From the NCBI GenBank assembly GCA_015058275.1, contig SVCQ01000002.1, forward strand, positions 7,648 through 52,901: 45,254 nt of DNA. Direction: 5' to 3'. Position 1 is the first letter of the stretch. Each line of letters begins with the position of its first letter. This DNA comes from Clostridiales bacterium. Lineage in GTDB: Bacteria > Bacillota > Clostridia > Peptostreptococcales > Anaerovoracaceae. Under the pieces are notes generated by a model. It saw nothing but the letters and a program-made list of their open reading frames with translations. It ran no database searches and was not told where the DNA came from. Shown here in pieces: positions 9,960-21,451 of the stretch. The position numbers were made by a program, and so were the translations under genes.

Positions 9960-10400
9960 ATGTATACAGGCGATATCAGAAAAGACGAAGACATGAAGAG
10001 GCTTCTCATAGAGAAGGCCATAGAGGTGCTGCCTAATTCGCATGCGCCTTATTCAAAATACAATGTAGCCGCTGCGGCGCTCTTTGACTCCGGCGAGATA
10101 TATACCGGCGTCAATGTTGAGAGCGCATCTCTCGGCGCCACGATCTGCGCGGAGCGCAATGCCATATTCCACGCTGTCGCAGAGGGCGAGAAACATCTCA
10201 TCGCAGTAGCCGTGGTCGGTGGACTTAACGGAGACCGCAGCGAGTACTGCGTGCCTTGCGGCATCTGCAGGCAGGTGATGAGGGACTTCGGAGACAAGGA
10301 CAGCATGATCATCCTCTCCGCAAAGACTCCTGATGACTACATGGAGAAGACTCTCGACGAGATGCTGCCTGACAGCTTCGGACCGGAGTCTCTCGACTGA
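9960..10400 (+). CDS. cdd: Cytidine deaminase
   Basis: Deaminates cytidine and deoxycytidine in pyrimidine salvage. The zinc site is intact: CAERNA (Cys63, catalytic Glu65) and PCGICRQ (Cys100, Cys103). The homotetrameric short form is normally ~130-140 residues; this is 146 from ATG 9960, where GGGAGAG is a good binding site. An internal ATG at 9993 would remove 11 residues and is less well supported. Confidence 0.95.
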   Translation: MYTGDIRKDEDMKRLLIEKAIEVLPNSHAPYSKYNVAAAALFDSGEIYTGVNVESASLGATICAERNAIFHAVAEGEKHLIAVAVVGGLNGDRSEYCVPCGICRQVMRDFGDKDSMIILSAKTPDDYMEKTLDEMLPDSFGPESLD

Positions 10401-10419
10401 CGCCGGGCGCGATAATTAT

Positions 10420-11697
10420 ATGAATAAAAGCATCAGCAACGAAATCAAACTTGGACTTCTTACCGTATTGCTCGGCGCATTCTGCGGCGCTGTGATATGG
10501 ATGTTCCTGAGATTGCTGGGGATATGTACCGGCCTCATCTGGGATACTCTCCCGGAGAGGGCCGGTTTTGAGTACCTCCCCGTCGTGATATGCGCTTTGG
10601 GCGGCCTGATCGCCGGCCTTGTGAGGAAGAGATACGGAGACTATCCCGAGGAGCTCCATCAGGTGCTCGGCAGGATCAGAAATGAAAAGCACTACGACTA
10701 CAGCCGCATGGGCGTTATCCTGGTCAGCGCCTTCATACCTCTTGTGATCGGCGCGAGCGTCGGTCCCGAGGCGGGTCTGACAGGCATAATCGCGGGCCTT
10801 TGCTACTGGGTCGGAGACAATGTGAAGTACGCCAGGGAGCAAGCGGAGGAATACTCGAGGATAGGGGCCGCGGTCACTCTCGGAAGCCTCTTCCACGTGC
10901 CGCTCTTCGGCATATTCGCAGTCGAAGAGGATCCTGACGGAGAAGGCGCGGTGCCGGCGATGCCGAAGGCATCGCGGCTGCTTCTCTACGGACTCTCAGC
11001 AGGCGCAGCATGGCTGGTCATGAAGGGACTCGGCAGCCTGCTCGGCACCGCGTCGGAGGGCTTCCCTTCATTTGACTTCGCAGAGCCTGCGGCCGCAGAC
11101 TTTGCGATGATGCTCGTATACATACCGGCAGGCATCGCGCTTTATATCGCGTTCGCCTGCTCAGAGAAACTCACAGGCAGAGCAGCCGGGATCATCCCGC
11201 CTGTCGCCCGTGAGAGCCTGTGCGGGGTCCTTGTCGGCCTGGCGGCAATCTTCGTCCCGGCAGTCACATTCTCGGGCGAAAGCGAGATGGGCATGCTCCC
11301 TGAGACATTCGTAAGCTATGCTCCGGCGACACTGGCAGGGATATGCCTCCTCAAGCTGATCATGACGGCCCTGTGCATACGCTTCGGGCTGAAGGGCGGA
11401 CATTTTTTCCCGCTCATATACGCATGCTCGTGCATGGGCTTCGCTCTGGCGCTCATCGTATTCGGAAGCCTTGCAGGCATAAGCGATGTATCTGCCCTGA
11501 CCGGACATGCGGTGTTCGCTGCGGCGATAATAACCGCGGCTACACTGGGAGCCCAGATGAAGCAGCCGGTGGCAGTCACAATGCTGCTCATGATATGCTT
11601 CCCGGTCCGCTTCCTGCTCTGGATATTCATTTCGGCGGCTCTTGCGGGCAGGACCGGCATATTATCAGATGTGAATAACCGCGGAGTAGTGGTATAA
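10420..11697 (+). CDS. ClC-family chloride channel/transporter
   Basis: A 425-residue multi-pass membrane protein. GASVGPEAGLTG is the second ClC selectivity motif variant (GxxGPExG), and GLKGGHFFPLIYAC corresponds to the GxFxP motif. Start at ATG 10420 gives an N-terminus that runs directly into the first helix; no clear ribosome binding site is present, so coupling to cdd, 19 bp upstream, is likely. ClC proteins exchange chloride (or fluoride) for protons; the ion cannot be assigned. The last codons overlap a terminator. Confidence 0.88.
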   Translation: MNKSISNEIKLGLLTVLLGAFCGAVIWMFLRLLGICTGLIWDTLPERAGFEYLPVVICALGGLIAGLVRKRYGDYPEELHQVLGRIRNEKHYDYSRMGVILVSAFIPLVIGASVGPEAGLTGIIAGLCYWVGDNVKYAREQAEEYSRIGAAVTLGSLFHVPLFGIFAVEEDPDGEGAVPAMPKASRLLLYGLSAGAAWLVMKGLGSLLGTASEGFPSFDFAEPAAADFAMMLVYIPAGIALYIAFACSEKLTGRAAGIIPPVARESLCGVLVGLAAIFVPAVTFSGESEMGMLPETFVSYAPATLAGICLLKLIMTALCIRFGLKGGHFFPLIYACSCMGFALALIVFGSLAGISDVSALTGHAVFAAAIITAATLGAQMKQPVAVTMLLMICFPVRFLLWIFISAALAGRTGILSDVNNRGVVV

Positions 11698-11728
11698 TCA
11701 AACAGATATACTCACTACTCCGTTTTTT
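11682..11728 (+). terminator. Intrinsic terminator of the ClC gene
   Basis: CGGAGTAGTG pairs perfectly with CACTACTCCG (10 bp) across a 21-nt loop and is followed by six T. The left arm lies inside the last codons of the ClC gene. The loop contains a candidate extended -10 promoter for the exporter genes. Confidence 0.85.
11690..11698 (+). promoter_or_regulatory. Candidate extended -10 promoter for the peptide-export genes
   Basis: TGGTATAAT is a perfect extended -10 (TGnTATAAT). It overlaps the ClC stop codon and the left terminator arm. A transcript starting at ~11705 would contain only the right arm and so escape termination. No convincing -35 is visible. Confidence 0.4.
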
Positions 11729-11753
11729 ATTGCGGAGATCATACAGGAGACCG

Positions 11754-13256
11754 ATGGCAGATATTTTCAGGAAATCAATAACAGATAAATTATCCTCGCC
11801 CGAACAGCTGGACAGATCCATCAGGATCATCCCGCCTTCGTTCTGGATCGCCGTTGCCGGAGGAGGCCTTATTATTGCGGTCGCACTTTTGTGGTCCGTA
11901 TTCGGAAGGCTCCCGGTCAGTGTCTCCGCGGGAGGCATGTACATGGGCAGGGACGGCATACACTCGGTCGTAGCTCAGGCAGAGGGCGTAGTAGATACCG
12001 TATATGTGTCTGAGGGCCAGGACGTCAAAAGCGGCCAGGAGATAGCAAGCCTCAGCGACAAGACTTATGCAGATGAGATGCAGGTCCTTCAGGAGCGCAG
12101 GGGGAGCGTCGAGGCGGTCACCTTCTATTCGTATGACGATGATGCGACTCCGGACAACAAAGCCCTGATCGACATAAAGTCGCAGCGCGTGGTGTCGGGC
12201 TCAGGCCTCACCACCGACCAGGAGCTCCTGCGCCAGAAGTCAAAGGACCTCAAAAAGGCCCGCAAGGCAGCCGGATCGTCTCATGACAGGATGATCGCTG
12301 CCGAGGCTGAGTACAAAAAAGCCGCCGCTGAATTCACCGCAGCCCAGGAGGCCTATGCGGCAGCTGAGGAGGCATACAAAAAGGATCCTGCGTCCGAGGA
12401 GAAGGCAAAGGCATACGAGGCTGCAGCCATCGCAATGAACGCGGCCAAGGCGGCTTCATCGGCTGCCGAGACAGCGTACAGCACTGCGGCCCAGACATAC
12501 AATACCAATTATTCCGAACAGAAGTCGCTTGAGGGAGCCGTATCCCAGCTTGAGGCCCAGGTGAGGGCAGACAAAAAGAACAAAGGCAGCCAGGACAGCG
12601 CACTTGAGATGCAGTTCGATTCCGCAAAGGAGAGCGCGCTGGCTCAGATAGACAGCGATATCAGGAAGCTTCAAAAGCAGATAGATGCCCTGACACTGAG
12701 ATCAAGTGCCGACGGCAAGGTGACGGGCCTCAATATAGCGGCCGGCAATGCAGTGCAGGCCGGAGCGACCATATGCAGGATAACCACCGGAAACGAAGAC
12801 GACTCCGAGGTCATCTGCTATATACCGGTAGCTGAGGGACGCAAGATCAAAAAGGGCATGGACGTCTATGTATATCCGTCCACAGTGAACCGCCAGGAGC
12901 AGGGCCACATGGTGGCCAGTGTGACTTCCGTATCTGACTATGTCGTCTCGCAGGAGGAGATGCTCAATCAGCTCGGCGATGCGACGCTGGTGCAGGCATT
13001 CCTGCAGAACGGTCCTGTGGTCAGAGCGGTCTGCGATCTCGAAAAGGATGCGAGCACCGCCAGCGGATACAAGTGGTCCAGCAAAAAGGGCGCGGATATA
13101 ACGCTCGAGGAGGGTACGGTAGTAACGGCAGATATAGTGACCGAAAAGAAAGCCCCTATAACCATGCTGATACCTTACCTCAAGGAGAAGTTCTCGGGAG
13201 ACGAGCCGGTCGTCCCGACACAGCCTCAAAAGACAGAGCAGAGTACAGCAAACTGA
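11754..13256 (+). CDS. HlyD-type secretion adaptor of NHLM peptide export system
   Basis: A 500-residue periplasmic-adaptor-type protein. One membrane helix (~39-62, FWIAVAGGGLIIAVALLWSVF) is followed by a biotinyl-lipoyl-like segment (VVAQAEGVVDTVYVSEGQDVKSGQEIASL), a long Ala/Lys/Glu coiled coil (~165-320) and the second lipoyl half (LRSSADGKVTGLNIAAGNAVQAGATI). This layout and the two ABC exporters downstream match the NHLM bacteriocin secretion protein family. AGGAGA at 11745-11750 fixes the start. In Gram-positives such adaptors sit on the outer face of the membrane. Confidence 0.88.
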   Translation: MADIFRKSITDKLSSPEQLDRSIRIIPPSFWIAVAGGGLIIAVALLWSVFGRLPVSVSAGGMYMGRDGIHSVVAQAEGVVDTVYVSEGQDVKSGQEIASLSDKTYADEMQVLQERRGSVEAVTFYSYDDDATPDNKALIDIKSQRVVSGSGLTTDQELLRQKSKDLKKARKAAGSSHDRMIAAEAEYKKAAAEFTAAQEAYAAAEEAYKKDPASEEKAKAYEAAAIAMNAAKAASSAAETAYSTAAQTYNTNYSEQKSLEGAVSQLEAQVRADKKNKGSQDSALEMQFDSAKESALAQIDSDIRKLQKQIDALTLRSSADGKVTGLNIAAGNAVQAGATICRITTGNEDDSEVICYIPVAEGRKIKKGMDVYVYPSTVNRQEQGHMVASVTSVSDYVVSQEEMLNQLGDATLVQAFLQNGPVVRAVCDLEKDASTASGYKWSSKKGADITLEEGTVVTADIVTEKKAPITMLIPYLKEKFSGDEPVVPTQPQKTEQSTAN

Positions 13257-13275
13257 CAGACAGTGAGGAGGATGG

Positions 13276-15420
13276 ATGAGCAATAATTATGCCAAGACTC
13301 CAACGGTCTATCAGATGGAGGCGACCGAGTGCGGTGCAGCCTCCCTGGCCATGGTGCTCGGCTATTACGGCAAGTTCGTACCTCTCGAACAGCTCCGCAT
13401 AGAGACGGGAGTATCGAGAGACGGATGCAATATGGGTAATATAATGACCGCCGCAAAGAAACTCGGCTTCGAGGTACACGGTTACCGCAAGGGGCTCGAG
13501 GGTCTTTTTGCGCTGCCTGTTCCGTGCATCATACACTGGAACTTCAACCACTTCGTGGTCTGGGAGGGGCGCAAGGGCGATCATTGCTATATAAACGACC
13601 CGGCAGTCGGACGCCGCAAGCTCACTGTCGACGACATCGATGAGTGCTATACGGGAGTTGTCCTGACATTCAAGCCGACCGATGCCTTTGAGAAGTCCAA
13701 CGAAAAGGAAAGCCTGTGGACCTTCGTCAGGGAGAGGCTCAAAGGACAAAAGGCGGGCATATCCGCTCTCATCACGCTTGGATTCTTCCTCGTCATACCG
13801 GGAGTGGTAATACCGCTGTTCTCCAAGGTGTTCATAGACGACATACTGCTGGGAGGCAACCGCGACTGGCTGATCTCTCTTATTGCGGTGATGCTGTTTA
13901 CGATGCTCTTCCAGGCATTCCTTACATACTACAGGTCTACGCTGCTCCTGAGGCTTCAGGACAAGATGATACTCGTCAATGCGTACAAGTTCCAGTCTCA
14001 CATGCTGAGGCTGCCGATCACTTTCTTCAGCCAGAGATATGCGGGCGACCTGTCGACCCGAATCGAAAACAACAATAACATCAGCGTCTTCCTCACGAGC
14101 AATCTCGCCGAGGCGGTGCTGAATTCAATAGTGGCTCCGCTGTATCTTGTAATACTGCTGTTCTTCAGTCCGCTGCTGACACTCATCGCGCTTGTCTTCA
14201 TGGTCATCAATCTGCTCCTGATGAACAAAGCCGCCTCATACCTCAGCGACATGTCCATGAAGGCCCAGCAGGATCAGAGCAAGATGATCGGCACCCTGTT
14301 CTCGGGTATCACGGTCACAGATACCCTCAAGGCATCAGGCACTGAGAATGAATTCGTGAGCCGTCTCCAGGGCAATTACGCCAAGAGCATACTTATGGAG
14401 CAGTCCATGGGATACACCCAGGAGATGCTCAACACCATACCTGAGGTGTCCTCCAATATTCTTAACATAGTCACGCTGGTGGTCGGCGGAGTGCTGGTGA
14501 TCAGGGGCAACATGACAGCAGGCATGCTCGTTGCATATTCGAGCCTGCTTACGTCCTTTACAGCTCCGGTCAACTCGCTCGCCGGATTCATCCAGAACAT
14601 ACAGACCACCAAGGCCGACATGGCCCGTGTCAACGACATAGACAAGTATAAGGTCGATGAGCGCTACGCCCGCGACGAGTACGAAAAGACCGATGAGAAG
14701 CTCACAGGATCTGTTGAGCTTAAAGACGTATCCTTCGGATACGACATACTCAAAGCTCCTCTCGTCGAGAACTTCGGCTTCACCCTCACGCCGGGCAAGT
14801 CGGTAGCCCTTGTCGGCGCATCCGGAAGCGGCAAGTCGACTGTAGCCAAGCTCTGCTCGGGACTCTACGCTCCGTGGTCAGGCGAGATACTCTTTGACGG
14901 CTGTCCTTCGGCCTCGGTTTCGCCGGAGGTCATGTCCTCGAGCGTCTCGACTGTGAGCCAGGACATAATGATGTTCTCCGGCAGCGTCAGGGACAACCTG
15001 ACGATGTGGGACAGGTTCATCATGGATGAGGACATAGTCAATGCAGCCAGGGACGCCTGCATACACGACTTCATCGTATCCAAGCCGGGCGCCTACGAAT
15101 ACCATCTGACTGAGGGAGGCTCCAACCTCTCCGGAGGTCAGAGACAGAGGATAGAGATAGCAAGAGCTCTGGTGAGCAACCCGAGCATCCTGATAATGGA
15201 CGAGGCGACCAGCGCGCTCGACCCTATAGCCGAAAAGCAGATAATCGACAACATCAAGAGGCGCGGATGCAGCTGCATCATAGTCGCCCACAGGCTGTCG
15301 GCTATCAGAGACTGCGATGAGATAATAGTGCTCGAAAACGGCAGGATAGTGCAGCGCGGCACGCACGAAGAACTCTCAAAGGTGCCGGGCCACTACCAGA
15401 GGCTCATCGAAACAATGTGA
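13276..15420 (+). CDS. C39 peptidase-containing ABC exporter (NHLM/NHLP type)
   Basis: A 714-residue three-domain exporter. Residues 1-~135 form a C39 cysteine peptidase with Cys19 (ATECGAASLAMVLGYYG), His92 (NFNHFVVWEG) and Asp108 (NDPAVGRR), which cleaves leaders after a double glycine. A six-helix transmembrane domain follows (~155-450). The ATPase has Walker A GASGSGKST (514-522), signature LSGGQRQR (~618) and Walker B ILIMDEATSALD. It lies 19 bp after the adaptor gene. All catalytic residues are present, so it should both mature and export the peptide encoded at 18123. Confidence 0.95.
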   Translation: MSNNYAKTPTVYQMEATECGAASLAMVLGYYGKFVPLEQLRIETGVSRDGCNMGNIMTAAKKLGFEVHGYRKGLEGLFALPVPCIIHWNFNHFVVWEGRKGDHCYINDPAVGRRKLTVDDIDECYTGVVLTFKPTDAFEKSNEKESLWTFVRERLKGQKAGISALITLGFFLVIPGVVIPLFSKVFIDDILLGGNRDWLISLIAVMLFTMLFQAFLTYYRSTLLLRLQDKMILVNAYKFQSHMLRLPITFFSQRYAGDLSTRIENNNNISVFLTSNLAEAVLNSIVAPLYLVILLFFSPLLTLIALVFMVINLLLMNKAASYLSDMSMKAQQDQSKMIGTLFSGITVTDTLKASGTENEFVSRLQGNYAKSILMEQSMGYTQEMLNTIPEVSSNILNIVTLVVGGVLVIRGNMTAGMLVAYSSLLTSFTAPVNSLAGFIQNIQTTKADMARVNDIDKYKVDERYARDEYEKTDEKLTGSVELKDVSFGYDILKAPLVENFGFTLTPGKSVALVGASGSGKSTVAKLCSGLYAPWSGEILFDGCPSASVSPEVMSSSVSTVSQDIMMFSGSVRDNLTMWDRFIMDEDIVNAARDACIHDFIVSKPGAYEYHLTEGGSNLSGGQRQRIEIARALVSNPSILIMDEATSALDPIAEKQIIDNIKRRGCSCIIVAHRLSAIRDCDEIIVLENGRIVQRGTHEELSKVPGHYQRLIETM

Positions 15421-15425
15421 TATTC

Positions 15426-15448
15426 ATCCCCGGACTGATGCCGGGGAT
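15426..15448 (+). promoter_or_regulatory. Intercistronic hairpin between the two exporters
   Basis: ATCCCCGG and CCGGGGAT form a perfect 8-bp stem with a 7-nt loop. There is no T-run, so it is more likely an mRNA stability or processing element than a terminator; the next gene begins 15 bp later. Confidence 0.5.
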
Positions 15449-15462
15449 ACGGAAGGTGCAAA

Positions 15463-18021
15463 GTGCAGCAGATAATCCTCAGAGGTGGAGATATCCACTA
15501 CACAAATGAAGACCGCGCCGTATACAAGGTGATGCAGGGTACTGTCCTCGTCTATCTGATCCCGGTCAGGGACGGAGTGGACGGAAGGAGACTGCTCATA
15601 GGCGAAATGGAAGCCGGATCAAGGATACCGGGCTTTTACCATGCCTCTGAACTCTACGGAGAGTGGAGGTTCGGCCTTGCTGCGCTGGATACCGCCAGCC
15701 TCGTCCTCGAAGACGGCAAGGCGGATGATGAGCTTATCGCGGAATTCTCCGCGGCAACGGGGATACGCATAGACCTATCCAGCAATCTGAACGAAGCGGT
15801 GATCGAGCAGTACGAAAAGACCGCCGTCAAGGAGGAGGGCTATCTCTACGCCGCAAAGCTCGAAAAGAAAAGGACCAGAGAGCAGTCTCTCGGACTCATA
15901 CATGACTACTTCGATACAGGAAGATCCGTTGCCCGCGATGCGGGATTTGAGGAGACGGGCAGGACTCTTTACGATGCTGCCGCGTACCTCTGCGCTGCCC
16001 AGAAGATAAAGATCGCACCGGTCGACCGCATAACAGAAAGCTGCGGCCGCAGATACGACATCAACGACCTGGCGAGGATATCTCACTTCGTAATACGTGA
16101 GGTAGTGCTCGAAAAGGGCTGGTGGCGCGGAGACTACGGCGCCCTGCTCTGCTACTCGGAAGATGACAGGAGACCTGTAGCCTGTGTCCCTAAGGGGCCG
16201 AAGAGCTACGAATTCTACGATCCGGGTTCGGGAAGATCCGGCAAACTGGACTCTGCGACCGCGGAGACCTTTGCCCCAAAGGCCGTCATGTTCTACAGGC
16301 CGTTCCCTGAGAAGGTCCTTACCAGATGGGATATCTTTAGCTTCGGAATGCAGAAGGTATACAGGAGCGATATCCTGAGGATGCTCGGGCTCACGCTGCT
16401 GGGTACGCTGATCGGACTCCTTGTGCCGTTCCTCAACGAGCAGGCATATGACAAATTCATCCCGATGGGCAACGCTCCGGGGCTCGCACAGCTCGGCGCC
16501 GTGCTGCTGGCATGCTCGCTCGGCAATATCCTGTTCACAGTGGTAAGGAACCTCGCATCATTCAGGTCGATGAGCAGCATGAAATACGCTGTACAGGCCG
16601 CGACCTTCGACAGACTCTTCAGTCTGCCGGAGAGCTTCTTCAGAGATTATGACGCTGCCGAGCTCGGCCAGAGGGCTCTTGGTGTATCGCAGATTTATTC
16701 CGTGCTGGCACAGAACCTGCTCACATCGCTTCTGACAGCGGTGTTCGCCCTGCTTTATCTGTGGAGGATGTTCAACTACTCCTCAGCTATGTCCGTCAGG
16801 GCGCTGGTGATGCTCGTAGCCGTGATGGCCATACTGACGACCCTGGGCTTCAGGCAGATCAAATACGAAGAGCAAAAGAGACGTGTAGACTTAAAGGCGC
16901 AGTCGATATCATTCCAGAACATCCTCGGCATCAGCAAGATCCGCAATGCATGGTCGGAGGACCGTGCGGTGCTGAGATATCTCGGGCGCTTCGTCGAGTC
17001 ACGCAGGATAAACAGGAAGAAAGAAGGCTACACCATGATAGTCAATACGGTGTCCGTATCGATCAACACGCTCTTCTCAGTGATTTTCTATTACATGATG
17101 ATACGCAAAGACGTCAATCTGAGCATCGGTGAGTTCACGGCCTTCGCTGCGGCTTTCGGCTCGTTTGCAGGAGCCATGCTCTCGCTTGTACAGAGCTTCC
17201 TGATGATCAACGAGATAAAGCCGATATACGATTACGCGAGACCTATACTCGAGACTCTGCCTGAGGTGAGCGAGGACGCCGGCATGCCGGGCGACATCGA
17301 GGGTGAGATAGAGGTCAGCAGGGTGACCTTCGGTTATGATCCGGATGAGCCGCCTGTGCTGAGAGACCTTAACCTCCACATAAAGCCGGGCGAGTACGTC
17401 GGCATCGTCGGTACATCGGGCTGCGGTAAATCCACTCTGCTCAAGCTCCTGCTCGGATTCGAGAAGCCTCAGCTCGGCAAGATATATTTTGATAAAAGGG
17501 ATATAGACGAGCTCGACAAAAGAGAGCTCCGCAAGAAGTTCGGAGTCGTGCTGCAAAACGGCGGCTTGATAACAGGCAGCATATATGAGAACATAACCAT
17601 CACATCACCTGGCGCCACGGTCGAGAGAGTCGAGGAGACACTGAGAGAGGTAGGGCTTGAAGAGGACATAAAGGCGATGCCTATGGGCCTCCACACAGTC
17701 ATTGCGGAAGGTGCAGGCACGATATCCGGAGGCCAGGCGCAGAGGCTCCTCATAGCGCGGGCCATAGTCGGCAGGCCAAAGGTGATATTCCTCGATGAGG
17801 CCACCAGCGCACTTGATAACGTGACGCAAAGACAGGTGGTGGATACCCTTGAGAGCATAGACGCCACCAAGCTCGTCATAGCTCACAGGCTGTCGACGGT
17901 GCGCAACTGCGACCGCATAATTGTCATGGATCAGGGCAATATAGCCGAGCAGGGCAGCTACGAGGAGCTTATGGCAAAGAAGGGCCTGTTCTATGACCTT
18001 GCCATACGCCAGCTGTCTTAA
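15463..18021 (+). CDS. NHLP/NHLM-type ABC exporter permease-ATPase without active peptidase
   Basis: An 852-residue protein beginning at GTG with GGAAGG upstream. The first ~280 residues form a soluble domain characteristic of the second NHLM transporter; it lacks the Cys/His peptidase signature. Transmembrane segments follow (~300-580), then an ATPase with Walker A GTSGCGKST (650-658), signature ISGGQAQRLLIARA and Walker B VIFLDEATSALD. The pairing with the C39 exporter and HlyD adaptor is the standard NHLM export trio, in which the two ABC proteins probably form a heterodimer. Confidence 0.92.
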   Translation: MQQIILRGGDIHYTNEDRAVYKVMQGTVLVYLIPVRDGVDGRRLLIGEMEAGSRIPGFYHASELYGEWRFGLAALDTASLVLEDGKADDELIAEFSAATGIRIDLSSNLNEAVIEQYEKTAVKEEGYLYAAKLEKKRTREQSLGLIHDYFDTGRSVARDAGFEETGRTLYDAAAYLCAAQKIKIAPVDRITESCGRRYDINDLARISHFVIREVVLEKGWWRGDYGALLCYSEDDRRPVACVPKGPKSYEFYDPGSGRSGKLDSATAETFAPKAVMFYRPFPEKVLTRWDIFSFGMQKVYRSDILRMLGLTLLGTLIGLLVPFLNEQAYDKFIPMGNAPGLAQLGAVLLACSLGNILFTVVRNLASFRSMSSMKYAVQAATFDRLFSLPESFFRDYDAAELGQRALGVSQIYSVLAQNLLTSLLTAVFALLYLWRMFNYSSAMSVRALVMLVAVMAILTTLGFRQIKYEEQKRRVDLKAQSISFQNILGISKIRNAWSEDRAVLRYLGRFVESRRINRKKEGYTMIVNTVSVSINTLFSVIFYYMMIRKDVNLSIGEFTAFAAAFGSFAGAMLSLVQSFLMINEIKPIYDYARPILETLPEVSEDAGMPGDIEGEIEVSRVTFGYDPDEPPVLRDLNLHIKPGEYVGIVGTSGCGKSTLLKLLLGFEKPQLGKIYFDKRDIDELDKRELRKKFGVVLQNGGLITGSIYENITITSPGATVERVEETLREVGLEEDIKAMPMGLHTVIAEGAGTISGGQAQRLLIARAIVGRPKVIFLDEATSALDNVTQRQVVDTLESIDATKLVIAHRLSTVRNCDRIIVMDQGNIAEQGSYEELMAKKGLFYDLAIRQLS

Positions 18022-18048
18022 AACTTCAGCAATGTCTTAAAAAGGGAA

Positions 18049-18078
18049 TTGGATTGTATATGCTATAGTTAATATAAT
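18049..18078 (+). promoter_or_regulatory. Promoter of the precursor peptide operon
   Basis: TTGGAT (18049-18054), 18-bp spacer, perfect TATAAT (18073-18078). Transcription would begin at ~18085. A small hairpin, CGGGT-GTAT-ACCCG (18084-18097), would be at the extreme 5' end of the message, followed by AAGGAGG before the precursor ATG. This gives the precursor, U32-like and ligase genes expression independent of the exporters. Confidence 0.65.
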
Positions 18079-18122
18079 CAAATCGGGTGTATACCCGGCA
18101 GATGCTTTTAAGGAGGATATCA

Positions 18123-18374
18123 ATGGATTACAACAAAATCATTGAACACTTCGCTCAGAAGGTGGATGAATCAAGAAGAGACGAGTTCATAGCAAAGGCG
18201 TCAAAGGTAGAGGATGCCTCAGAGGCAGAAGCACTCGGAAAAGAGTATGGCATCGTACCTGATGCGGAAGACAGGAAATTAATGCTCGAAATGGCCGGCG
18301 ATATGGATCTTTCGGATGACGTGCTTCGTCAGGTTGCAGGAGGAATTAATCCTTACAGTAATTGGGCAGGTTAA
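18123..18374 (+). CDS. Ribosomal peptide precursor with Nif11-like double-glycine leader
   Basis: An 83-residue protein from ATG 18123 (AAGGAGG 8 nt upstream; an upstream in-frame ATG at 18087 has no site). The leader is helical and acidic and resembles Nif11/NHLP leaders: N-terminal MDYNKIIEHFAQ, a middle repeat-like helix, and the terminal LSDDVLRQVAGG typical of C39 substrates. Cleavage after Gly74 would release INPYSNWAG, only nine residues, with no Cys, Ser-rich or Thr-rich tract for lanthionine or azole chemistry. It lies directly after two NHLM exporters and before two putative modifying enzymes. Evidence for the leader is strong; what happens to the core is unknown. Confidence 0.85.
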   Translation: MDYNKIIEHFAQKVDESRRDEFIAKASKVEDASEAEALGKEYGIVPDAEDRKLMLEMAGDMDLSDDVLRQVAGGINPYSNWAG

Positions 18375-18379
18375 ATTAA

Positions 18380-19321
18380 TTGAATATAATGGATATGTCC
18401 TGGCGTGTTCCTGCACTATTCAATAACGACAGAGCTGCACTGAGGCTGACTCGGCTGCTCAGACCTTATCTGTGCAGGAATCTTTTTGATGCGGTCTACG
18501 GCGCTCCGATGACTGCATGGTCAGGAGGCAGGTCCAGCCTGGTTAGCGAAAGACTGGAAGAAGAACCGCTGCGCAGGTATTTTGAAGCTTACAGAGACGA
18601 AGGCATCAGATGCTCTCTGACTCTGACAAGGATGAATCCAAACAAAGAGGACTTCAGTGACCCGTATTGCAACCTGCTCCTCGATATGCTCGATGAGTAT
18701 GACGGCGAGGCTATAGTGTTCAATGATGGTCTCGCTGCATATATCAGACAGTCGCATCCCGGGATACCTCTCGTGGCATCGAATATAAAGCCTGCAACGG
18801 ACTTTGTTAAAGGCTGGCCCGGTTGCTCTGATGAGTATGAATACTACATGAGACTGCTCGAAGACTATGACCGCATAGTCATAAGGAACGAAGCGGCTCT
18901 CAACGGGGATATGAGGGAACGCCTGAGGGACATAGCTGACCGCTGTGAGATAATAGTCAATCCAAGATGCGTGCCGGATTGCCCCCGCTGTCTCGAACAC
19001 TATCAGAATATTGAGAAGGCGATAGAGGACATTAACCATAAAGCCGGATGCTATTATTCAAACGATGATCAGCGTGTCTACAGCATGGCGCTTGATCATG
19101 GACAGATCCGTGAATTCGCAACCGAAGGCTTTACTCATTACAAGATCGAGGGGCGAAATGTCCCATCGGGCATATTCGTCAAATACTGCATGAATTTCAT
19201 TCTCGAAAAAGAGAGGAAAGCTGAGATACAAAATGCATTGGATAACAGAGACGTTATTGAACTTGTGATGCTTCTGACTAAGAACGAAGATCGTGAAACT
19301 CGCGTACAGATACCGCAGTAA
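18380..19321 (+). CDS. U32-like TIM-barrel enzyme with Cys cluster
   Basis: Up to 313 residues. The start could be TTG 18380 (GGCAGG in the end of the precursor gene), ATG 18389 or ATG 18395; coupling to the precursor is likely. The fold resembles the peptidase U32 family: IVFNDGLAAY, IVIRNEAAL, IIVNPRCVPDCPRCLEHY and the hallmark HYKIEGR (253-259, TTG numbering). Cys197, Cys201, Cys204 and Cys224 could bind an Fe-S cluster. Characterised U32 proteins (UbiU/UbiV, TrhP, RlhA) carry out oxygen-independent hydroxylations. Acting on the precursor peptide is inferred from position only. Confidence 0.72.
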   Translation: MNIMDMSWRVPALFNNDRAALRLTRLLRPYLCRNLFDAVYGAPMTAWSGGRSSLVSERLEEEPLRRYFEAYRDEGIRCSLTLTRMNPNKEDFSDPYCNLLLDMLDEYDGEAIVFNDGLAAYIRQSHPGIPLVASNIKPATDFVKGWPGCSDEYEYYMRLLEDYDRIVIRNEAALNGDMRERLRDIADRCEIIVNPRCVPDCPRCLEHYQNIEKAIEDINHKAGCYYSNDDQRVYSMALDHGQIREFATEGFTHYKIEGRNVPSGIFVKYCMNFILEKERKAEIQNALDNRDVIELVMLLTKNEDRETRVQIPQ

Positions 19322-19341
19322 TAAGCAGCACAGGGGACCTG

Positions 19342-20970
19342 ATGAAACTCAGCAGAAAGATAATAGATTCAATTTCGCAAAGAATGCAGGATACTGTAAT
19401 GGTATATCCCGGAAAGGATATATCAGGGGAGGATTTTCTCTCAATGACAGCATCCTGCGCTTATGCGCTTAAGGCAAGGGGTATCAGGAAGGGCCAATGG
19501 GTCGCGGTCTGTTCTTTAACTACAGCGGAGGCTGTCGCAGCAGCGATCGCATGTCACCATATCGGTGCGGCCGTCCTGATGATCAATCCATCGCTCAGTA
19601 AAGAGAAGATACGTTCGGTCCTCAGTGACAACGGCGTCCGGGTGATACTTGTTCATGAGATGCTCCACGGAGGGATCAGGAAGTCTCTGGACGGAAGCAG
19701 TATAGAAACAGAGGTAATACTCTCATATACAGATTCCATGCCGGCGCCTTTGAAGCTATTAAAAGGCTTTGGCGCAATGCCGCAGATAGAGATCGATCCG
19801 GTACCAGACGTGGAACTGGTGACCTGGCATGACCTCGTAAAAGATGCAGACTGCTCGGATGCTATGCGCGTTCTGGCTGAGACAGAGGTGGACACTGATC
19901 CTGAGGCGGCGGCCTTGATGGTGTGGTCATCAGGATCAACAGGTGATCCTAAGGGGATAATCCTATCAGAGCGGGCGATACTCGCAGAGATCAGGATCAC
20001 CGGAGGGATTTATGTCGCTACGGTTGTCGATGATTCGATTGCAATACTCAGGAATATGTGGTCTGCATCCACATATATCATGCTGACGCTTGCGATGCTG
20101 GTGATGCCCCGGAAGATAATCATCCCGGCAGGGCAGGCTCTTGCGCATATGATCTCTAAGCAGCATGCCAGCATGGTCTTCAGCACGGCAGATGGTTATC
20201 TGAACTGCATTGCATCCGGAGAGCTGGATGAAGCGGATATGTCCGGCCTTAAGCTTGCATTCTGCGGAGGGGAACGCACTCTTCCGTCAACTGAGAAAAT
20301 CGTGAATGATTATTTCAGAGAACATGGATGTAGTTGCTGGCTGACAGATTCCTGGGGACTGAGTGAGTTCTCGTCTCTTGTTGCAGACAACATTGTTGTC
20401 TACAGAAAGGGGAGCGTCGGCAGACCATTCCCTGAGGTGCGCATAGAAGCCTTTGATCCGGATCATCCGTGCAGGCCTCTAGAGAGGGGGCAGATCGGCG
20501 AGCTCTTTGTGATATCGCCGGCAGTCATGAGCGGATACTATAATGATGAAGAGGCTACGAAAGCTTTCTTCTTTACGGATGAGGACGGCAACGTGTGGGG
20601 TCGTACGGGCGATGCCGGACATGTCGACGAGGACGGTTTTGTATATGTGCACGGTCGCATAGACAGCGTGTTTTACCCGGACGGAGTCCATGCCGTTTAT
20701 CCTTCGGAGATAGAGAATGTCCTGGCGGAGGATGCACGTGTGCTGTGCTGCGCTGTGGTACTCAATAATGAGGACGGCGCTATAACAGCTCACATTCAGG
20801 CGTCTTTGCACGATGAGGCAGAGCAGGACAAACTCGAAGATTCTCTGAGAGATCTTGCCGGGAGAGGCCTGGCTGAAGAGAAGAGACCTGCCCGCTATGT
20901 GTTCTGGCCTAAGGGGCTTCCGATAAACGAGTGCGGCAAAACAGACCGCAGGAAGCTCGAAAGATACTGA
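19342..20970 (+). CDS. AMP-forming adenylating enzyme (acyl-CoA synthetase/ligase superfamily)
   Basis: A 542-residue ANL-superfamily protein. The AMP-binding P-loop is VWSSGSTGDPKG (from residue 194), the A5-like motif is TDSWGLSEFS, the hinge region GRTGDAGHVDEDGFVYVHGRID, and the C-terminal catalytic Lys region NECGKTDRRKLERY. AGGGGA precedes ATG 19342. It activates a carboxylate as an adenylate; no carrier-protein domain is present in the window. As last gene of the precursor operon it could activate an acyl group, an amino acid or the peptide C-terminus. Substrate unknown. Confidence 0.85.
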   Translation: MKLSRKIIDSISQRMQDTVMVYPGKDISGEDFLSMTASCAYALKARGIRKGQWVAVCSLTTAEAVAAAIACHHIGAAVLMINPSLSKEKIRSVLSDNGVRVILVHEMLHGGIRKSLDGSSIETEVILSYTDSMPAPLKLLKGFGAMPQIEIDPVPDVELVTWHDLVKDADCSDAMRVLAETEVDTDPEAAALMVWSSGSTGDPKGIILSERAILAEIRITGGIYVATVVDDSIAILRNMWSASTYIMLTLAMLVMPRKIIIPAGQALAHMISKQHASMVFSTADGYLNCIASGELDEADMSGLKLAFCGGERTLPSTEKIVNDYFREHGCSCWLTDSWGLSEFSSLVADNIVVYRKGSVGRPFPEVRIEAFDPDHPCRPLERGQIGELFVISPAVMSGYYNDEEATKAFFFTDEDGNVWGRTGDAGHVDEDGFVYVHGRIDSVFYPDGVHAVYPSEIENVLAEDARVLCCAVVLNNEDGAITAHIQASLHDEAEQDKLEDSLRDLAGRGLAEEKRPARYVFWPKGLPINECGKTDRRKLERY

Positions 20971-20986
20971 ATAAAGATAAAGAAAA

Positions 20987-21016
20987 AGAGATGTGATCCT
21001 TTCGGAAAACATCTCT
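20987..21016 (-). terminator. Terminator of rplM-rpsI, possibly shared with the convergent ligase gene
   Basis: AGAGATGT and ACATCTCT form an 8-bp stem with a 14-nt loop. Read on the minus strand it ends in CTTTTTCTTT, a good T-run after rpsI. On the plus strand the tail is CGTTGTTTG, so it is weaker for the ligase operon. Confidence 0.75.
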
Positions 21017-21049
21017 CGTTGTTTGCTCCGTATGAAGCGCGATGCCTGA

Positions 21050-21451
21050 TTATCTCTTCGAGAACTGGCTTGCTCTTCTTGCCTTCTTGAGACCAGGTTT
21101 CTTTCTTTCCTTCATCCTTGGGTCTCTTGTCAGGAAGCCTGCTGCCTTGAGTGCAGGTCTGTAAGCCTCTTCGTCGACCTCGCAGAGTGCTCTTGCGATG
21201 CCGTGTCTGAGAGCTCCGGCCTGACCTGTGAAGCCGCCGCCGTTAACTGTGGCGATGACATCAAAGCTGCCGAGGGTTCCTGTCAGCTCGAGAGGTCTCT
21301 TGACTTCGTTCTTGACGATGTCCTTCTCACCGAAGTAAGCGTCGAGGTCTCTCTTGTTGATGATGATGTTGCCTGCTCCAGGGAGAAGTCTAACTCTGGC
21401 TACGGATGACTTTCTTCTGCCTGTTGCCTGATACATAGTCTTAGCTGCCAT
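21050..21451 (-). CDS. rpsI: 30S ribosomal protein S9
   Basis: A 133-residue protein with the S9 hallmarks [38 protein letters not shown] and the basic C-terminus [12 protein letters not shown] that reaches the ribosomal P site. It follows rplM after 16 bp with AGGAGGAG before the start, the usual rplM-rpsI operon. Confidence 0.98.

Follow-up and report, generated by a model that had tools for sequence, protein, structure and literature searches.

The 45,254-nucleotide stretch of Anaerovoracaceae DNA analysed here (the window) is part of contig C19 in the 1.82 Mb draft genome (36 contigs, 83% complete) of an uncultured Clostridiales bacterium. At positions 11754-20970 it carries six genes on the plus strand, separated by short gaps, for a HlyD adaptor, a C39 peptidase-ABC exporter, a second ABC exporter, a small peptide precursor, a U32-like protein and an AMP-forming ligase (Table 1). 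On balance this locus probably combines an NHLM exporter with a three-gene maturation cassette whose product is a short peptide, modified after translation and secreted, and we consider it likely that the precursor, the U32-like protein and the ligase form one maturation unit. A wider proposal is put forward tentatively, namely that they represent a new class of ribosomally synthesised and post-translationally modified peptide (RiPP), in which a Nif11-like precursor with a double-glycine (GG) leader and swappable cores would be modified by a U32 iron-sulfur (Fe-S) enzyme and an acid-attaching AMP-forming ligase, the whole unit being served by an NHLM exporter.

The evidence for a unit comes from a second cassette in the same genome. 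The U32-like protein, and likewise a profile of the precursor, each matched one other place, in both cases contig C36, where diverged copies of the ligase, precursor and U32 genes lie together. Their order differs, being ligase - precursor - U32 on C36 and precursor - U32 - ligase in the window, and the C36 U32 gene starts one base past the precursor stop. That the three genes stay together despite divergence and reordering is good evidence for one function. Chance adjacency of the U32 and ligase genes was considered and rejected, given this diverged second cassette with its precursor in another order. Between the copies, dN / dS is 0.28 / 0.92 for the precursor, 0.205 / 1.14 for the U32 protein and 0.267 / 1.56 for the ligase, and differences at third codon positions exceed those at the other two. 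Judged by these values, both cassettes are intact, under purifying selection and kept as proteins.

The window precursor agrees with the 83-residue double-glycine peptide that a first-pass annotation, made from the DNA letters, had described. A strong AAGGAGG ribosome-binding site lies ahead of its start. The leader end, DLSDDVLRQVAGG, satisfies the double-Gly leader pattern, with V at -4, L at -7 and L at -12 as hydrophobic positions before GG, and it resembles the consensus ELSDEELEAVAGG published for NHLM/Nif11 systems (PMC2887384; here and below, PMC numbers stand for excerpts of the papers). Position -8 is Val, against Glu in the ComA consensus (PMC6363468). Likeness to Nif11 leaders is weak (TIGR03798, 16.7 bits, below the cut-off of 32.3), and a Pfam scan of the precursor gave no match. 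An AlphaFold model built from two sequences predicts, with modest confidence (pLDDT 71.8), five leader helices and an unstructured core. The two precursors share their leaders far more than their predicted cores: 46 of 74 leader residues are identical, against 3 of 15 core columns. The aligned cores, INPYSNWAG in the window and CNSPVCGEWGYCEDK on C36, have an Asn, a Pro and a Trp in common; the C36 core also holds one Ser and three Cys.

All three exporter parts score above the curated cut-offs of their NHLM models (TIGR03794, TIGR03796 and TIGR03797), bearing out the earlier assignment of an HlyD adaptor, a C39-ABC exporter and a second ABC exporter. The intact Cys, His and Asp of the C39 domain, also claimed before, are in place; we take these residues to be the catalytic ones, and the peptidase is on this basis judged intact. 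The domain aligns closely with LahT150 (PDB 6mpz, E 2.2e-47), and the motifs ECGAAS, HWNFNHFVV and YINDPA are retained. LahT150 is reported to cleave many GG leaders, those of the Nif11 type included (PMC6363468), and the window C39-ABC protein is predicted to remove the leader and export the peptide. Unlike known NHLM/Nif11 systems, the six genes include no LanM, YcaO or radical SAM enzyme, and the U32 and ligase genes stand there instead; Pfam and NCBIfam scans of the six genes also found no nitrile-hydratase-type enzyme, as the first reading had it.

The U32-like Cys protein named in that reading is predicted to adopt a U32-type TIM-barrel fold, though its Pfam score is below the cut-off. 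It has Glu185 and Cys 92, 192, 196 and 219 (numbered from 18395), and Cys 92/192/196 occur in all 57 rows of a family alignment, where identity to the window protein is 21-27% and 11 of the 57 rows reach E 0.01 with Pfam U32 (best 7.4e-5). Like TrhP, RlhA and UbiU/UbiV it combines the modelled fold with conserved Glu and Cys, and like UbiV it has a four-Cys set with one Cys far upstream. It differs from them in its sub-cut-off Pfam score, in the spacing CX99CX3CX22C, in a gene that adjoins a peptide precursor, and in its place on a separate deep branch of an uncharacterised family. The U32 proteins covered by PMC6599085 and PMC6747719 act on RNA or in quinone synthesis, and these papers connect members whose Glu/Cys set is similar with hydroxylation and Fe-S clusters. 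The same reports tell against a U32 peptidase that trims the leader or core, which the family name and fold would suggest; as leader removal is already served by the C39 domain, we regard this role as most improbable. Among the matches listed in literature on U32, RiPP, NHLM and adenylating enzymes, there was no U32 enzyme acting on a peptide.

The window protein belongs to a widespread group. A contig scan, from which records very near the source genome may be left out, confirmed 426 loci with U32-like relatives, and per-locus results refer to the best 80 of these. Their hosts include Lachnospiraceae, Oscillospiraceae, Treponema and Fibrobacter, and their best-segment identity to the window protein is 23-29% (highest 29%). 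Pfam and NCBIfam give no function for this family, denoted 'HLPGLFEFYELYK', of rumen and gut anaerobes. It has Cys 92/192/196 in common with the window protein, and the alignment behind the model implies a common fold; it differs by low identity (21-27%) and by the lack, in the best 80 loci, of such a precursor or an NHLM-level exporter. A tree of 57 rows sets the window and C36 proteins apart on a branch of 7 changes per column, so long that its placement is unsure. The pair is a derived form of this uncharacterised family, associated with a precursor in this genome only so far. A profile search of the PDB with the family gave two chance-level matches only. One of the family loci (L012-L091) holds a tandem pair, at L016:9887-11766, which recalls the paired UbiU/UbiV.

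The adenylating enzyme also stands as first annotated, with a PF00501 score far above its cut-off. The motifs SSGSTG-PKG, RTGD and GK, which presumably serve adenylation, are retained in both the window and C36 ligases. The C-terminal domain scores 18.8 bits with PF13193, below the cut-off of 24.5. None of the 25 NCBIfam models listed is reached over its cut-off; the top ones are long-chain-fatty-acid--CoA ligases (207 bits), against 132.5 bits for an amino-acid adenylation domain. Adenylating enzymes do serve ribosomal peptides elsewhere, as NosI does in the nosiheptide side-ring pathway with the carrier NosJ and with NosK (PMC5585349). The present cassette differs from that pathway in having neither a carrier protein nor a hydrolase/transferase-like gene, and its locus has no thiopeptide machinery.

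These features also allow a reading of the precursor as a scaffold, on which the ligase would load an acyl or aryl acid and the U32 protein would modify the tethered group, a small molecule or acyl-peptide being freed on export. The better fit of the ligase to acyl-CoA ligase models and the lack of a separate carrier would suit this, as would nosiheptide, in which the group loaded by a ligase undergoes modification while it is still tethered (PMC5585349). A pure carrier would not be expected to vary as much as the two cores do, and the precursor model is of low confidence; we think the scaffold unlikely.

A modified core seems to us the better account, and the pathway is most likely an anaerobic one of RiPP type, in which the core is tailored before C39 cleavage and export. 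The U32 enzyme and the ligase would recognise the common leader and act on the core. Of the two, the U32-type protein, probably with a [4Fe-4S] cluster on C92/C192/C196/C219, would perform an oxygen-independent oxidation, most simply a ring hydroxylation (both aligned cores contain Asn, Pro and Trp). The ligase would adenylate a carboxylic acid, either a small acyl or aryl one or the carboxylate of a peptide, and couple it to the core. Cleavage behind Gly-Gly by the C39 domain would follow, and the product would be exported by the two ABC proteins together with HlyD. Of the individual steps, hydroxylation by the U32 protein is possible though doubtful, and acyl attachment by the ligase more doubtful still.

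The cassette may be expressed on its own. The first-pass annotation had placed all six genes on one strand with short gaps, which is correct with one amendment: the widest gap, of 101 bp, lies directly upstream of the precursor and contains a promoter-like motif. The pattern TGTCTY-N17..19-TATAW has this single match in the window, and a generic sigma-70 scan did not list the motif at 18033-18061. A first set of 14 stretches (210 kb) comprised 12 from the same genome, some overlapping, and 2 from a sister species; it was not random and included repeat-derived contig ends. It held 13 matches, against 1.25 expected from simple shuffles. Five precede GG-leader open reading frames (ORFs; the window, two on C14 and two on C11), one precedes the C36 ligase and two precede secreted-looking proteins at the starts of C19 and C26. 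The five others include one before the transporter gene that precedes the C14 ligase and one before a GGDEF gene. Twelve further stretches of the genome (229 kb) gave one match, and a rescan of two first-set stretches gave none. All five GG-leader ORFs that a strict search pattern picked out have the motif at most 100 bp from their start (the window copy counted by hand). Outside that pattern, the boxes before the C28 gene are closer together and the first box before the C15 gene is one base off; the precursor on C21 has no match. In this genome the motif seems to tag a group of genes for exported peptides and secreted proteins. Since it precedes both the window precursor and the first C36 gene, precursor, U32 and ligase look like a unit served by the exporter, and the window and C36 cassettes may be transcription units apart from it.

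Beyond this genome, close relatives of the cassette were sought widely. Among 99 relatives, the U32 search gave four matches at E 0.001, the source genome and three weak ones; among 349 genomes of the family it gave six at E 1e-10, those outside the source genome scoring at most 45.7 bits, against 689 and 675 for its own two copies. Plasmids yielded three records of at most 26.9% identity and viral contigs none. The ligase pair, searched in 297 genomes at E 1e-70 with 4 candidates scored per genome listed, was found in the source genome only. In 393 genomes of the order, the precursor profile found the source genome and two weak matches (E about 1e-4), which are other NHLM precursors. None of 20 NHLM loci of the order, one of them the genome's own second system, has a U32 or ligase match at E 1e-3, and one (L138, 7e-4) has a weak precursor match.

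Among the best 80 of the distant U32 loci, in stretches of 3 to 21 kb, there was neither a precursor match nor an NHLM-level exporter: the best second-ABC match was 1.8e-54, and the 20 NHLM loci all reach 1.9e-133 or better. Two of the 80 (L040 and L089) carry, roughly 5 kb off and on the opposite strand, a gene that weakly resembles the ligase. U32 and ligase genes without exporter or precursor had been named as evidence against the peptide-locus reading, and these loci go some way in that direction; their U32 proteins belong to other sub-branches, at 21-29% identity, and precursor and ligase genes adjoin each of the two close copies. Co-occurrence of the three genes is seen in the second cassette within the genome and in none of the other genomes searched.

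This distribution bears on a further alternative, in which a GG-leader bacteriocin or signal peptide is simply cut to INPYSNWAG, and the U32 protein and ligase serve another product, such as a factor for self-protection or an independent small molecule. A short core fits a signal peptide, the distant U32 relatives among the best 80 lie away from such precursors, and GG precursors at L125 (the genome's second NHLM locus) and at L127 in the same-genus genome G008 have no known maturase among the genes scanned, which makes export of unmodified peptides possible. G008 has a second NHLM locus, L126, with YcaO (157.5 bits) beside precursors, which lowers the weight of this alternative slightly. Against it speaks the recurrence of precursor, U32 and ligase as a diverged, reordered set, with the C36 precursor stop and U32 start one base apart; we hold it to be rather unlikely.

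The modification might also be supplied in trans by other enzymes of the genome, the U32 protein and ligase being secondary. The genome has a LanM on C14 (442 bits, cut-off 304) and a SCIFF maturase on C6, and the C36 core offers one Ser and three Cys. The LanM has a GG precursor of its own next to it and the SCIFF maturase a small peptide gene of its own, and because the window core has no Cys, no lanthionine can form within it; this possibility is very unlikely. The earlier claim that the U32 protein and the ligase are the maturases is partly supported: the diverged second set fits it, and known maturases do exist elsewhere in the genome. No YcaO match was found in this 83% complete genome. 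On C14 a ligase distant from that of the cassette (22% over 249 residues), a GG precursor and LanM follow one another in that order, so that acyl-activating ligases recur beside peptide precursors in this genome, and a ligase-tailored lanthipeptide is possible there. The C14 row sits behind a transporter gene with the promoter-like motif.

Several points weigh against a modified peptide made by the cassette. Close relatives were found in the source genome only, with no co-occurrence across species. The window protein scores 11.9 bits with Pfam U32 (PF01136; E 0.13, cut-off 22.4), and its Cys spacing deviates from the usual CX6CX15CX3/4C (PMC6747719). Neither cassette shows a carrier protein or acyltransferase. 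The window core, nine residues without Cys or Lys, is a small target, the C36 leader ends in AAG, outside the listed GG/GA/GS motifs, and the L127 and L125 precursors, with no known maturase among the genes scanned, were noted above. The window motif alone is not significant (0.15 matches expected in 45 kb; a match turned up in 15 of 100 shuffles). C36 yielded no NHLM exporter: the C39-ABC profile gave one 111-bit ATPase-type match there, and the second-ABC profile found two places in the genome, C19 and C21. The C36 peptide is for this reason most simply read as exported in trans, provided that no exporter lies past the end of the contig. The C36 start lies in a repeat found at seven other places, all at most 260 bp from a contig end, which hides the DNA before the cassette.

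We read the locus as probably one for an NHLM-exported peptide with a new enzyme set; the case for a three-gene maturation unit is stronger than the first-pass annotation could show, and the new product class first suggested is possible. If the proposal is right, the U32 protein would, as far as our searches show, be the first of its family to act on a peptide product, and an anaerobic oxidising enzyme for peptide chemistry; it would also be the first functional lead for a U32-like family with 426 detected loci. The three-gene set looks like a route to a secreted modified peptide that has not been described before, and two natural cores on one leader type make the changed residues directly testable.

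Table 1. Features of the locus and of related places. Positions refer to the window unless a contig (C) or locus (L) is named.
Feature	Position	Strand	Basis or remark
HlyD-type adaptor of NHLM exporter	11754..13256	+	TIGR03794 251 bits (cut-off 156.2); AGGAG before ATG 11754
C39 peptidase - ABC exporter	13276..15420	+	TIGR03796 995 bits (cut-off 853.3); Peptidase_C39 125.6 bits
Second NHLM ABC exporter subunit	15463..18021	+	TIGR03797 818.5 bits (cut-off 709.4); no C39 match
Promoter-like motif TGTCTT-N18-TATAT	18033..18061	+	90 bp before precursor start
Precursor, 83 aa; 74-aa leader ending VAGG, predicted core INPYSNWAG	18123..18374	+	GG leader; C36 paralogue
U32-fold Cys protein, candidate Fe-S maturase	18395..19321	+	start set from the C36 copy; 18389 an alternative
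AMP-forming (ANL) ligase, acyl-CoA-ligase-like, candidate maturase	19342..20970	+	PF00501 168.6 bits (cut-off 29.9)
C36 ligase	C36 186-1814		337/541 aligned residues identical (62%) to window copy
C36 precursor, 89 aa	C36 1825-2094		49/83 identical (59%)
C36 U32	C36 2096-3007		207/302 identical (69%)
C14 ANL ligase	L216:383-2155	-	
C14 GG precursor, 76 aa	L216:122-352	-	
C14 LanM	L215:7368-10067	-	
C6 small Cys-rich peptide gene and SCIFF-type radical SAM maturase	L217:5006-6650		TIGR03974 661 bits (cut-off 425)
C21 second NHLM exporter, own 175-aa GG precursor, ECF sigma factor gene	L125:7392-13491		
C21 third C39-ABC	C21:45574-47736		below NHLM cut-off
G008 NHLM locus L126	L126:1288-3841 and 12714-13637		YcaO beside precursors; Nif11 precursor; radical SAM gene further on
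G008 NHLM locus L127	L127:11435-12444		short GG precursor, sigma factor, DUF7005 gene
Further sites of the promoter-like motif	L006:81; L215:91; L216:11409; L162:276 and 1198; L007:119; L159:93		
Contig-end repeat	L006:1-64; L215:13-72; L216 end; L158 end; L159:14-77; L162:196-255; L007:76-99; L227:76-105		eight places

The locus is bordered upstream by a ClC channel gene and downstream by convergent rpsI and rplM. Behind the ClC gene, which ends at 11697, come a long inverted repeat and a run of T, read by eye as a terminator (a scan did not list it). In 5 of 14 relatives a ThrH - DUF1858 - B3/B4 - Cda block, named from our reading of the sequences, is separated from rpsI by 0.7 to 3.5 kb that hold other genes; in the remaining nine it was not seen within the fetched rpsI stretch, some stretches being short. 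At the Cda - rpsI junction (10400-21050 in the window) these other genes are PTS-like, transporter-like and flavoprotein-like by sequence reading. Near rpsI in the five relatives there was no exporter or cassette match (E 1e-8, 40% of length), and the window locus therefore looks like an insertion at a variable slot. PADLOC gave no match for three proteins of the locus.

The repeat at the start of C36 lies near eight contig ends and is always oriented into the contig. It has inverted arms, TTGCCARAYTWAATGCA and TGCATTWAYTTTGGCAA, in six of the eight places, and the second arm only on C19 and C15. Downstream of it lie GG-leader ORFs (two on C14, and on C28, C11 and C15), secreted-looking proteins (C19 and C26) or the C36 cassette, and it could be a regulatory or a recombination site.

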